Assembly (NCBI GenBank): GCA_003225175.1
Contig: QIBA01000042.1
Coordinates: 1-64,000, forward strand
DNA from: Acidobacteriota bacterium
GTDB taxonomy: Bacteria > Acidobacteriota > Terriglobia > Terriglobales > Acidobacteriaceae
Direction of reading: 5' to 3'
DNA length: 64,000 nucleotides
Shown here: one piece after another, positions 5,598-35,333 of the stretch
Numbering within the stretch: the stretch's first letter is position 1
Layout: each line of letters starts with the position of its first letter
Notes under the pieces: generated by a model
Told to the model about the DNA's origin: nothing
Databases searched by the model: none
Seen by the model: only the letters and a program-made list of their open reading frames with translations
Made by a program: the position numbers and the translations under genes

Positions 5598-5884
5598 TAG
5601 CGGCGCTCGAACATGGGTGGGGATTGTAGTGCATGGGCGCGTTGGAGCAAACCAAAACAAAGATCCTTCGACTCCGGCGTCCCCCGCGCCCGCCCCATCG
5701 AGCGCAACCGCAGCGCTCGACGGGTCCCCGGAAACGCGCGGGTCCCTCCTGCGCTCAGGATGCTCGGATTTATTGGTATTCTGGGCAGAATTGGAGATCG
5801 CGACTTCTTCGCAAAATCGAAATTCTCAATTCGACACGGAGGTTTCCTGTAACTATGAACTCAAGCATCCTGAGCGGAGGCAGG
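5598..5884 (-). repeat. Long R3 repeat, copy A, with the first codons of a GIY-YIG gene
   Basis: Read on the minus strand this matches the 8728-9017 region over nearly 290 bp with few differences. It carries the same leader and then an ATG with codons for MFERRYCF, closely similar to the start of the intact GIY-YIG gene (MFDRRYFV), after which similarity stops. Only one terminal repeat is present (near 5653-5690). It therefore looks like a solo element with a decapitated nuclease gene. ORFs predicted across it are not real genes. Confidence 0.8.
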
Positions 5885-8557: not shown

Positions 8558-8584
8558 TGTGAAGATTCTAGCATTGGGAACTGA

Positions 8585-8625
8585 GAGAAAGATCGGGTGA
8601 TCGGACCATCGGGTGATCGGGAAAT
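8585..8625 (+). repeat. R1-type repeat
   Basis: GATCGGGTGATCGGACCATC followed by GGGTGATCGGG, an imperfect copy of the 45-bp sequence at 333-377. It lies just upstream of the HAD gene start (on the opposite strand) and touches the R3 repeat. Confidence 0.75.
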
Positions 8626-8631
8626 TTCGTT

Positions 8632-8999
8632 TAGACGGACGAGTGGCGAAGCTGAATTGGCACACGAAAAGCAAAACAAAAGATCCTTCGACGCCGGTCT
8701 CCCGCGCTGGAGAAAGCGCGCGGGAACCCTCCTCCGCTCAGGATGCTTGAGTTCATAGTTAAGACGAAGTCCATGTAGAGAATTGAGAATCTCGATTTCG
8801 CGAACAAGCCGCCATCTCCAATTCTGCCCAAAATACCAATAAGTCCGAGCATCCTGAGCGCAGGAGGGACCCGCGCGTTTCCGGGGACCCCGTCGAGCGC
8901 GGCGGTTGCGCTCGATGGGGCGGGCGCGGGGGACGCCGGAGTCGAAGGATCTTTTGTTTTGGTTTGCCCCAATCCGCCAATGCACTACAATCCCCACCC
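8632..8999. mobile_element. R3 element, copy B: TIR-bounded segment upstream of the GIY-YIG gene
   Basis: From 8673 to 8960 the segment is bounded by inverted repeats of about 35 bp: AAAACAAAAGATCCTTCGAC at the left and its reverse complement GTCGAAGGATCTTTTGTTTT at the right, with GC-rich inner parts that match less well. Inside are further paired motifs (GCTCAGGATGCTT near 8736 and AGCATCCTGAGCG near 8848). Bases 8632-8672 resemble the 3' end of the GIY-YIG gene (compare 9319-9362). The gene itself starts 40 bp beyond the right terminal repeat. It has no transposase. Confidence 0.7.
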
Positions 9000-9440
9000 A
9001 TGTTCGACCGCCGCTACTTCGTCTACATGCTGCAAAGCACATCCCGACATACTCTTTACATCGGCTTCACAAACTTCTTGATCGGCCGAGTAATCGAACA
9101 CCGCACACAAAAACACTCGAACAGTTTCAGCGCGAAATACCGAACATGGCGGCTGGTGTATTACGAGGAATATGGCGACTCGGAGGCGGCGTTCGAGCGA
9201 GAGCGGCAATTGAAAGGTTGGAGCCGCGCGAAAAAGGAAGCCTTGATCGTGAGGCTCAATCCACACTGGCGCGATCTTATCGCTGCGTGGGAGGAGAAGT
9301 ACGGCTTGGAGTTTCGGTTAGACGGACGAATTGTGGCGAAGCTGAATTGGCAGACGAAAAGCAAAACAAAAGATCCTTCGACTCCGGTCTCCCGCGCTGA
9401 AGAAAACGCGCGGGAACCCTCCTCCGCTCAGGATGCTTGA
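9000..9440 (+). CDS. GIY-YIG domain endonuclease of the small solitary type
   Basis: A 146-residue protein starting MFDRRYFVYM. The GIY-YIG nuclease core covers about residues 6-95: VYM at 8-10 replaces GIY, YIG is at 20-22, the catalytic Arg is R30 (IGRVIEH) and a Glu-rich helix follows (EAAFERERQLKGWSRAKK). It resembles the solitary UvrC-like GIY-YIG proteins (COG2827), normally about 90-100 residues. Residues from about 105 on are encoded by the following R3 repeat copy and are not conserved-looking. The gene sits between R3 copies B and C, so it is probably linked to their spread. It could also be an ordinary repair nuclease that happens to lie there. Confidence 0.85.
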   Translation: MFDRRYFVYMLQSTSRHTLYIGFTNFLIGRVIEHRTQKHSNSFSAKYRTWRLVYYEEYGDSEAAFERERQLKGWSRAKKEALIVRLNPHWRDLIAAWEEKYGLEFRLDGRIVAKLNWQTKSKTKDPSTPVSRAEENAREPSSAQDA

Positions 9441-9602
9441 ATTCGTGGTTACACGAAGCCTCTGTAGCGACTCAAGAATTCCGATTTCCCGAAGAAGCCG
9501 CCATCTCCAATTCTGCCCAAAATACCAATAAGTCCGAGCATCCTGAGCGCAGGAGGGACCCGAGCGTTTCCGGGGACCCCGTCGAGCGCTGCGGTTGCGC
9601 TC
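9319..9602 (+). repeat. R3 element, copy C, overlapping the 3' end of the GIY-YIG gene
   Basis: Closely similar in the same orientation to 8632-8906, starting inside the GIY-YIG coding sequence. The left terminal repeat is intact (9363-9397); the right terminal repeat is missing, as similarity ends near 9602. Copies B and C are thus direct repeats flanking the nuclease gene. Just after it, 9629-9650 holds a fragment of the R1 family. Confidence 0.8.
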
Positions 9603-9711
9603 GGGGCTCAAAGATTGCAGGGTCTTCTTCACCCGATCGCTCGATTCTCGTTGGTCCAGGCGCCAAATCCTATTATTGCCTCTTCCATCCATGTCGTATC
9701 CTTGACGATCA

Positions 9712-10431
9712 ATGGGACTGCACGGATTCTTTGGCTACGGCGTTATTCTTCAGGCTATTGCCATCCTGCATTTCATTCGCCGCCGTCCTGACACCTATTG
9801 GCTTTGGATCATCATCTTTGGCAGCGGAATTGGAGCTTTCATATACATCTGCGTGGAAATGCTGCCGGAGATCGGGATGGTCGGGCGCAGCTTTCAGGTG
9901 TTTCCGCGGCGTAGTCGCATTCGCCGATTGGAGGCGTTGATTCTCGACAATCCGTCGGCGGGAAATTATGAGGAGCTTGCTGATCTTTATTTTGAAGATG
10001 GCAAGTACGCTCGGGCGCGCGAGTGCTATGACCGCGCGATCTCGACACGAACGGATTCTCCCGATCCCTTCTACCGGCGCGCTCTCTGCCAGCTGAAGCT
10101 GGGCGACTATGCGGCGGCTATACACGATCTGCAACATGTCTTTGCCAAGGATTCGCGATATGACTATGACCGCGCTGCCGGCCTGCTCGCGGATGCGCTG
10201 GCGAAGAGCGGCCAGACTGAAGCTGCAGGGGCGATGTTTGAGCGCGTGATTCAGACCTCCACGCTCTCGGAGACGCTCGTCAACTATGCTGAGTTTTTGA
10301 AGTCGCAAGGCAAGCTCGCGGAGGGCCGCGAGTGGGCTCAGCGAGTGCTTACTCGCAAGAAGACGCTGCCTGGATATCTGAAGCGGCGGGAACGGCTTTG
10401 GTTCCGCAAGGCGGCGGCGTTAGCGAAGTAG
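9712..10431 (+). CDS. TPR-repeat membrane protein
   Basis: A 239-residue protein with two N-terminal membrane segments (residues about 6-22 and 30-48, with WLWIIIFGSGIGAFIYI), then from about residue 75 several tetratricopeptide units (NYEELADLYFEDGKYARARE, PFYRRALCQLKLGDYAAAIH, LVNYAEFLKSQGKLAEGRE). TPRs make protein-protein contacts. No enzymatic motif is present. The N-terminal part resembles the short two-helix domain seen before some phospholipase D proteins. Function unknown. No strong ribosome-binding site precedes the ATG. Confidence 0.8.
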   Translation: MGLHGFFGYGVILQAIAILHFIRRRPDTYWLWIIIFGSGIGAFIYICVEMLPEIGMVGRSFQVFPRRSRIRRLEALILDNPSAGNYEELADLYFEDGKYARARECYDRAISTRTDSPDPFYRRALCQLKLGDYAAAIHDLQHVFAKDSRYDYDRAAGLLADALAKSGQTEAAGAMFERVIQTSTLSETLVNYAEFLKSQGKLAEGREWAQRVLTRKKTLPGYLKRRERLWFRKAAALAK

Positions 10432-21202: not shown

Positions 21203-21370
21203 AAGAATCGGGTGATCGGGTGATCGGGTCATCGGGCGAAGTAAGAGCGTGGGCTGTGGGCTGTCGGCTGTCGGCTTTCGGCTTTCGGCCACAAGTTTTT
21301 TGGCGTAAGTCCCAAACAGAATACCGGCAGAACGCCGAATGCCGATCGCTGATCGCCCGATTCTTCATAC
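21203..21370. repeat. Nested inverted repeats (R1 outside, R2 inside)
   Basis: R1-type sequence at 21203-21247 (GAATCGGGTGATCGGGTGAT) and its inverted, shorter partner at 21343-21368 enclose R2-type arms at 21250-21290 (GGCTGTCGGCTGTCGGCTTT) and 21326-21350 (GCAGAACGCCGAATGCCG). The two families found separately at 333-1069 and 1367-1504 are thus stacked here, 25 bp before the ubiA-like gene. Confidence 0.7.
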
Positions 21371-25239: not shown

Positions 25240-25375
25240 CTGCCCTACCTCCCAAAATGCAATTTGCGAAATTCGCTCATGATATGAGTGGCCGGTGGGA
25301 AGTAGAGGTTGTAGAAGATCGAGTGCTGCGGGACTGAGCTGCTGACTGCGTTTAGAATGCGAAGCAACCAAAGGA

Positions 25376-25537
25376 ATCGGTCCATCGGATGATCGGGTGA
25401 TCGGGTGATCGGGTGAAGTGAAAAGCAGCAGCGCTCGCACCGTTTGTGAGTTTAGCGATTTTTGTAATTGTGATTGAAAATCGGAGCCGCTTCTTACTTC
25501 GCCCGATCACCCGATGACCCGATCACCCGATTTCTTC
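25376..25537. repeat. R1 inverted pair upstream of pheA
   Basis: R1 copies at 25376-25420 and, inverted, at 25493-25537 (CTTACTTCGCCCGATCACCC) enclose about 70 bp without a gene. The arrangement is the same as at 333-1069 but without an ORF between the arms. Confidence 0.75.
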
Positions 25538-25545
25538 TGATTCTC

Positions 25546-26352: not shown

Positions 26353-26370
26353 ACAATTCGGCCGCAGGGC

Positions 26371-26395
26371 AGACACGCAGCATGCTGCGCCTCTA
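26371..26395. repeat. R6 palindrome (GCAGCATGCTGC core)
   Basis: The 12-base palindrome GCAGCATGCTGC at 26377-26388 sits within an AGACACGCAG...GCGCCTCTACTA context, which recurs at 35118-35139 and 35194-35213. Confidence 0.6.
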
Positions 26396-26586
26396 CTAGG
26401 CCGAGCACGCGCAGGCGCCCGGGCGCTCCGTTCCGCCGGCACTTCTCGTTGCTGTGGAGTAGGTCCGTCAGGAGTACAATTCCCTGCGCTTTGGTTAACC
26501 CGATTTTCGGCGGGCCGGAATCGTTTAGCTAAGTTGAGTCATCTATTATCAAGGTCTTAACAGACCATTGTTTATAAGGCACTTAT

Positions 26587-35106: not shown

Positions 35107-35117
35107 CGCATCCGGTA

Positions 35118-35213
35118 GAGACGCAGCATGCTGCGTCTCCACCATGCCTTCTCGTGACGATACACGGGCGGGAACACCCAGGCAGCAGCGTGCAGATACA
35201 GCATGCTGCGTCT
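35118..35213. repeat. Two R6 palindromes downstream of the GH99-like gene
   Basis: GAGACGCAGCATGCTGCG continues to TCTC as a perfect 22-base palindrome at 35118-35139, and AGATACAGCATGCTGCGTCT at 35194-35213 is a nearly perfect one. The shared core recurs at 26371-26395 and in the lon terminator stem. Confidence 0.75.
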
Positions 35214-35333
35214 TTACTAAACCTGGTTTGACACGCAATTCCCGCAACAGCGAGAATAGATAAGCAGCCCGTCCAAACCGCGGTTCGCTAGCTCTTCCAC
35301 CAAGCGAACTCCAGGCGGTATGAACGTTTCCAG

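Follow-up and report, generated by a model that had tools for sequence, protein, structure and literature searches.

A small gene for a GIY-YIG nuclease in an Acidobacteriota genome was found to lie between two inverted hairpin repeats, each with a GTC-type tag at its outer end in most relatives. We consider it likely that hairpin, GIY-YIG gene and inverted hairpin together form a minimal mobile unit, with a nuclease that would recognize the hairpin ends, and that this unit would spread by homing-like repair. The gene is located in the window (the whole stretch of 64,000 nucleotides that was analysed), which lies on contig C42 of a 5.73-Mb draft genome. The reading as a minimal mobile element derives from the nested architecture seen in many phyla, from copy borders at the tags, presence and absence among relatives, deleted derivatives, matched ends and the coupling between stem type and protein lineage; mobility of the unit is well supported. 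That the nuclease acts on the hairpin repeats, that it drives the spread itself and that the route is copying by repair and not true transposition, we infer from sequence comparisons.

The features of the locus are listed below. The three hairpins nearest the gene start and end (8681, 8847 and 9371) were placed from sequence, the nuclease gene from PF01541 and its conserved residues, and both neighbouring genes from Pfam.

8681..8749 (minus strand): hairpin repeat similar to a repetitive extragenic palindrome (REP), left half of the upstream doublet; tag end AAGCATCCTGAGCG (minus strand) on the right, tail GAAGGATCTTTT on the left.
8847..8953 (plus strand): hairpin repeat, long loop with further palindromes; tag outward (left), tail towards the gene.
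9000..9440 (plus strand): GIY-YIG nuclease gene, 146 aa from ATG plus stop.
9371..9439 (minus strand): hairpin repeat facing the upstream one, into which the 3' end of the gene extends; tag on the outer (right) side.
9537..9603 (plus strand): truncated hairpin repeat, second half of the downstream doublet.
5598..5880 (minus strand): third copy, a deleted derivative with a doublet (one half shortened), the leader and a stub of the gene start (5598-5617, ~20 bp), the remainder gone.
8559..9723: interval between a gene for a haloacid dehalogenase (HAD)-type hydrolase (left, minus strand) and a gene for a tetratricopeptide repeat (TPR) protein (9712-10431).

The preliminary description had called the gene a GIY-YIG nuclease, and this was borne out by the match to PF01541 (E 5e-13, 49.5 bits; curated cut-off 22.6). 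It was the sole family match of the nested gene; PF01797, the Y1/HUH transposase family that characterizes REP-associated tyrosine transposases (RAYTs) and their REPs, was not among the matches. Residues Y, Y, R, H, E and N were invariant among 31 aligned relatives and are all present in the window protein. Tyr, Tyr, Arg, Glu and Asn, which are invariant or at least 90% conserved across 31 aligned proteins including that of the window, have catalytic roles in GIY-YIG proteins.

Direct copies sharing nearly 275 bp had been described around the gene, and comparison of the flanks gave two blocks in direct orientation, 8643-8761 with 9333-9451 (119 nt, 94%) and 8764-8914 with 9453-9603 (151 nt, 91%), offset by 689-690 and joining into one alignment of 293 nt at 91%. 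The repeat is thus real, but 'terminally inverted repeat element', as it had been named, is better replaced by doublet, since each ~290-bp repeat consists of two inverted hairpins ~100 bp apart. It follows that the gene itself lies between inverted hairpins. The tails of the inner pair, 8847-8953 (plus) and 9371-9439 (minus), point at the gene, and their tags point outward. The ATG at 9000 is located ~45 bp past the hairpin ending near 8953, close to the 40 bp given before, and the 3' end of the gene runs into the next repeat copy, so that the downstream hairpin codes for the C-terminal ~22 residues.

Both gene-bearing and gene-less copies were found in the same genome, one of the checks proposed in the preliminary description. 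With the 361-bp copy as query, 28 BLAST matches, mostly fragments, were obtained and grouped into 11 places, three on the window contig and eight on other contigs. One of the latter, the copy L004 on contig C64, comprises one hairpin, the leader and a gene stub slightly longer than that at 5598-5880, whereas the other seven hold repeat pieces; two gene-less copies (5598-5880 and L004) have thus retained a stub of the gene start. The copy L005 on contig C124 carries the canonical tag AGTCAT (by eye). Five GIY-YIG domains exceeded the cut-off in this genome: uvrC, the window gene, genes on contigs C24 and C71, and one beside a transfer RNA (tRNA) gene, tRNA-Val. The C24 gene is flanked by inverted hairpins of another sequence (70-bp arms, 87%), and the C71 gene by GTCATTCCGA..GAGGAATCC inverted hairpins, which also differ in sequence from those of the window (by eye).

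Sites without the insert were found in two congeners. The aligned blocks of the HAD-type hydrolase and TPR genes are 130 bp apart in G003 and 85 bp apart in G005, compared with 1165 bp and 1181 bp between the same points of the window; this short spacing indicates that the insert is absent from both. The region is rearranged in G004 and G001 and yielded no empty site there, and at the site of the copy 5598-5880 other palindromic DNA in G001 precluded a clean one. A clean single-unit empty site was likewise not obtained for the units of G001; G000 and G004 are without the whole stretch of 6.2 kb (L092:3286-9548, on contig C28 of G001), which contains two GIY-YIG units; in its place G000 has ~85 bp and G004 has 196 bp.

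The arrangement recurs in other bacteria, as had been proposed for related GIY-YIG genes. A PF01541 search of 61 Acidobacteriota genomes gave, among the matches listed, 60 non-uvrC stretches, which with three loci of the genome itself and the window gene made a set of 64. In 49 of these the two 750-bp flanks shared a repeat of at least 35 bits (best left/right match), compared with 16 of 400 random places. A protein profile (A1) built from 31 of these proteins detected at least 578 relatives across the collection of genomes, of which the best 80 were retained. Their record titles assign these to Acidobacteria, Verrucomicrobia, Planctomycetes, Chloroflexi, Bacteroidetes, Chlorobi, Ignavibacteria, Calditrichota, Proteobacteria, Clostridia, Bifidobacterium, several candidate phyla and others; 54 of the 80 had such a flank repeat, against 4 of 400 random places.

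A strict hairpin rule (GTCAT, three bases, 6-70 nt, their exact complement, A[TC]C) was then applied to 300-bp flanks; loci with shorter flanks, 1 of 52 Acidobacteriota and 10 of 80 others, drop out of the count. Hairpins faced the gene from both sides in 29/51 Acidobacteriota and 40/70 other loci, together 69/121. The controls gave 0/605 for shuffled flanks (shuffling preserved base composition only), 0/20 for uvrC (flanks at a fixed place, partly inside the gene), 0/12 for GIY-YIG genes of the tRNA type described below, and 2/2000 for random places. The Y1_Tnp control gave 0/28; it started from 30 loci, one per genome, of which 28 had enough flank, and PF01797 pools RAYT and IS200 transposases. 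Under a loose rule, less strict than the GTCAT rule, 33 of the 51 Acidobacteriota and 48 of the 70 other genes were two-sided. Within 250 bp of the gene there were 0.84-0.87 facing hairpins per locus, compared with 0.01-0.05 at distances over 500 bp. It could be argued that this is an ordinary gene amid intergenic repeats, because REPs gather in intergenic DNA, for example at terminators, and small genes may be flanked by chance; a low background of hairpins is present farther out (beyond 500 bp, 0.01 to 0.07 per locus, 250 bp and orientation). The excess of two-sided loci over random places, however, the matching of left and right stems and the coincidence of paralogue borders with the tags (see below) make chance flanking very improbable.

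The repeats mostly follow the consensus GTCAT-xxx-GA-...-GA-x'x'x'-A[TC]C, with the tag outward (GTCAT-stem-ATCY). As the strict rule itself demands pairing, the pairing test was repeated with half-sites only. When these were located without any pairing requirement, 153 of 163 were fully complementary, compared with 35.4 after partners had been re-dealt (maximum 55 in 5000 deals). Complementarity that persists despite changes of letters indicates that the stem is kept as a structure, by compensation. Pairing of stem positions in the covariance model of the hairpin is partly by construction, and the half-site test is the unbiased form. Among the 31 model sequences the stem starts with AT, the T-A pair being present in 31 (the T is required by the search rule) and the A-T pair in 25. 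The stem is interrupted by a GA/GA mismatch after 5 bp; that of CGTC-type REPs has 8-9 bp and begins with AT paired to AT. Pairing, the outer tag and the tandem G.A mismatch are thus kept while the stem sequence drifts.

Left and right ends were compared under a looser rule (GTC[AG]T, 400 bp), with which both sides were seen in 77 of 132 loci. The same stem triplet occurred on the left and on the right of 50 of these 77 genes, whereas 16.3 were expected from shuffling (maximum 31 in 10,000 shuffles). Among genomes holding several types the left stem equalled the right in 13 of 18 cases against 8.9 expected, a value reached in 119 of 5000 trials, and eight of nine genomes with more than one labelled gene hold genes of differing stem type. 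Stem type follows protein lineage: on the protein tree 34 changes were counted, compared with 44.1 ± 1.9 (minimum 38 of 500). This tree has few columns and many open forks, and it leaves out 11 of the 132 loci (stops in frame) and 40 of the other 121 (sides differ or no hairpin).

The borders of the unit were determined from all same-genome pairs of hairpin-type loci, which gave five blocks covering all or most of the gene. The left edge of the paralogue block was 0, 2 and 7 bases before the GTC tag in three of the five, and the right edge was within 10 bases of the GAC end in four; the exceptions were G055, with its left edge inside the hairpin, and G030, where the block ends inside the gene. 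These borders suggest that in most cases the hairpins are the ends of the copied unit.

Occupied and empty alleles were also found in other genera. In Azospirillum lipoferum 4B the gene, with doublets on each side, lies between sufB and sufC, whereas A. oryzae, A. ramasamyi and Azospirillum sp. B510, which are 93-94% identical around sufB-sufC, have 87-129 bp there and no insert; no GTC-tagged hairpin was detected by eye in the gap of these three. A separate copy, bordered by a single hairpin to the left and to the right, occupies the sufB-sufC gap of Shinella sp. PSBB067. Two Sphingobium strains, TomTYG46 and TomMM7A, have an arm-gene-arm arrangement between fnrL and a regulator gene. At the same site TomTYG64 and the more diverged TomTYG74 have a single palindrome uniting the two outer arms and no gene, and TomTYG72 has neither. 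The Sphingobium alleles are compatible with insertion at the tip of the palindrome and repair from a copy, or with loss by annealing of the arms. The sufB-sufC gap of Sphingomonas parapaucimobilis (L287:1416-1826) contains a different gene, of the DUF559 family (PF04480), framed by another palindrome in inverted copies (core CCCCTCCCCTTCAGGGGAGGGG), which may be a further case of a nuclease paired with a hairpin.

The main rival is true transposition, in which the GIY-YIG protein would itself be the transposase, excising the unit bounded by the hairpins, or copying it, and integrating it at new sites. RAYTs are thought to move REPs by transposition, and the element-like paralogue borders at the tags, the separate insertions into the sufB-sufC gap in two genera and the inverted ends with tags outward would all be explained in this way. 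On the other hand, a target-site duplication was sought and none was seen, and to our knowledge there is no GIY-YIG-only transposase, nor are GIY-YIG enzymes known to join strands. We regard true transposition as possible but rather unlikely.

In the preferred reading, homing-like repair, the mobile unit would be ~0.4-0.55 kb long and have two REP-like hairpins, tag outward, as its ends. The nuclease would recognize the hairpins as folded DNA and cut at or near a hairpin site. The break would be repaired from a gene-bearing copy, with the hairpin arms serving as homology, so that the unit would home into its own repeats. Its non-autonomous relatives would then be the solitary hairpins and the doublets found elsewhere in the genome. 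Such recognition of a folded hairpin and repair from a gene-bearing copy would fit the constancy of the tag, the conserved pairing, the matching of the two ends and the Sphingobium alleles.

To relate hairpins and gene genome by genome, the 61 genomes were scanned with both the covariance model (R1) and the protein profile A1, the gene being called at more than 80 bits; per-genome hairpin counts of 126 (or of 39 in the larger draw described next) mean at least that number. All 31 genomes with the gene have at least 7 hairpins. Of the 30 without it, 21 have no hairpin, three have one to three and six have at least 12, so that five or more hairpins are present in 31/31 genomes with the gene and in 6/30 without. 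When 198 genomes were drawn evenly from the phylum, five or more hairpins were found in 18 of 22 genomes with the gene and in 12 of 176 without (Fisher 3e-14), and outside the family of the window the values were 4/8 and 7/169 (p 5e-4); these statistics are inflated by shared ancestry.

Another possibility is that the gene is a passenger, which merely landed among hairpins moved by another enzyme (a RAYT, an IS200-type transposase or host factors) or serves, for example, in defence. Some genomes are indeed rich in hairpins without a recognizable gene, and Y1_Tnp (PF01797) matches are common, being present in 52 of the 61 genomes. However, none of the 28 Y1_Tnp genes had hairpins on both sides, and two genomes with zero PF01797 matches, G021 (81% complete) and G024 (99%), hold 109 and 77 hairpins, respectively; on these grounds ownership of the hairpins by Y1_Tnp (RAYT) was rejected. 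G058 and G059 have 10 PF01797 matches each and zero hairpins. The passenger explanation is also opposed by the tracking of nuclease lineage by stem type and by the weakness of the PADLOC matches (14 to 17 bits), and we consider it unlikely. Membership of a known defence or NCBI family was rejected as well, the matches being weak (PADLOC as above; TIGR01453 25.5 bits against a cut-off of 56); the best PADLOC match was that of a homing-endonuclease model to the tRNA-type protein L029 (17.4 bits).

Several observations weigh against the mobile-unit reading. The hairpins of the window itself have a degenerate, worn tag, AGCAT instead of GTCAT, and 52 of the 121 genes are without a strict hairpin on one or both sides; the loose rule was two-sided at 32 of 1000 random places. 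In the Acidobacteriota-only tree the association of stem type with lineage is modest (14 changes compared with 17.5 ± 1.3, minimum 13). Many hairpins are present without a recognizable gene in G006 (69), G015 (52), G035 (52), G056 (70), G018 (23) and G025 (12), the seven gene-less genomes of the window's family hold 1 to 69, so that gene and hairpins are less tightly linked in that family, and the 12 gene-less genomes of the phylum draw with at least five hairpins belong here as well. Conversely, four gene-bearing genomes of that draw gave no R1 match. In three of these (G062, G089, G167) GTC-tagged palindrome arms of other shapes were recognized by eye beside the gene, and in the fourth, G108, with a weak 70-bit gene match, no such arms were seen by eye. 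The Sphingobium pair is explained by gene loss as well as by gain. No target-site duplication was readable by eye at the window, Azospirillum, Sphingobium or paralogue borders, the Azospirillum and window-congener junctions being too diverged to read. Finally, the gene is rare on plasmids (33 of 72,556 records) and a search of 50,697 phage records with another family member (L229) gave no match, which leaves cell-to-cell transfer unexplained.

A sister group of the nuclease appears to use the same strategy with a tRNA as the element end. Eleven loci with short or broken GIY-YIG proteins of another subtype were set aside by eye. A gene for tRNA or transfer-messenger RNA (tmRNA) is located 7 to 210 bp away in nine of the eleven (L029, L064, L066, L072, L075, L083, L086, L101 and L110), a count that is not blind, because these loci were set aside partly after tRNA sequence had been seen. 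A twelfth locus, L109 (207 aa), was set aside with them and lies outside the tRNA scan. For comparison, a tRNA or tmRNA gene was present anywhere in the stretch in none of 20 uvrC loci and in one of 40 hairpin-type loci (of 52). Pieces of tRNA are repeated on the far side of the nuclease gene in six loci (L029, L064, L066, L086, L094 and L101); that of L094 was recognized by eye, and ARAGORN found no tRNA there.

Three further observations were made in passing. At L106:3492-4619 (contig C10 of G033) the GIY-YIG frame continues into a full enoyl-CoA hydratase domain (PF00378), giving one open reading frame of 376 aa beside the repeat, possibly a fusion. In the window, a second dispersed repeat of ATCGGGTGATCGGG units in both orientations (334-377, 1025-1075, 8588-8631, 21203-21246, 25372-25423, 25492-25542) also edges the insertion region, and a small repeat family around CAGCATGCTGCG has three copies (26368-26402, 35114-35148, 35189-35223).

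The preliminary description had compared the locus to a RAYT-REP unit with a GIY-YIG enzyme in place of the transposase, and this comparison is supported by the gene-less copies, the insert-free congeners and the related genes within repeats across many phyla. As in RAYT/REP and REPIN systems (described in part in PMC3733652), a single gene is nested in inverted palindromic repeats, with many gene-less copies and doublets. The enzyme is a GIY-YIG nuclease here and an HUH/Y1 transposase there, and the tag is GTC here and GTAG there; no GTAG-tagged REP was found on both sides of the gene, the tag being GTC elsewhere and AGC in the window. In RAYT systems the type of repeat is tied to the lineage of the enzyme, and the same holds here.

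Free-standing GIY-YIG homing endonucleases include the I-TevI relatives and the Seg proteins of phage T4. The present family resembles them in its catalytic domain, in a putatively self-spreading gene and in the probable break-and-repair route. It differs in that no intron or intein was seen and in that the gene lies in a dispersed repeat, with many possible sites per genome, and not in one conserved gene. The sole solved relatives by profile are single-domain GIY-YIG proteins of the UPF0213 type (PDB 1zg2 and 1ywl, E 2e-11 and 3e-7).

REPs with a CGTC tag were defined in a 2013 paper (PMC3733652), which reports them from five phyla, counts A. lipoferum, S. meliloti and Neisseriae (dRS3) among the carriers and says that they apparently have no dedicated transposase. 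These REPs, which include Neisseria dRS3 and Rickettsia RPE-6/RPE-4, share with the present repeats the GTC tag (CGTC; variants TGTC and CCTC), the AT stem start and inverted dimers, whereas many repeats here have longer loops, the internal GA/GA mismatch and a CT tail where the REPs have CCA. Genes of the nuclease family were found inside such repeats (recognized by eye) in Neisseria gonorrhoeae, Azospirillum lipoferum 4B and Sinorhizobium meliloti, each of which that paper lists as a carrier by genus or by species. The terminal tag CGTC/TGTC/CCTC is present in many flanks of other loci and in the copy L005, and the window copies read AGCAT. A loop of 4-5 nt with a CCA tail occurs at some other loci, for example L220 and L281; far longer loops and, for the most part, a CT tail are seen in the window and in many Acidobacteriota. 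The words 'palindrom' and 'intergenic' do not occur in the 2006 survey of the GIY-YIG superfamily (PMC1564403), and no report linking GIY-YIG genes to REPs was among the literature matches listed, subscription journals and preprints lying outside that search.

Judged by its position in the repeats, the GIY-YIG enzyme is a candidate enzyme for a widespread class of bacterial repeats whose partner has been missing. In a wider proposal, for and against which we see about equal weight, single-domain GIY-YIG nucleases would be the autonomous engines of bacteria-wide hairpin-ended elements, one branch using CGTC-type REPs as ends and targets and being their missing partner, and the sister branch using tRNA and tmRNA genes likewise. 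With a candidate enzyme inside CGTC-type repeats in many phyla, the question of the missing transposase can be put to the test by means of a single purified protein and a single hairpin oligonucleotide. If this is right, a share of the palindromes in bacterial intergenic DNA would be explained by a very small type of mobile element that relies on a nuclease alone, and a second, unrelated type of enzyme would be added to the REP/RAYT story.
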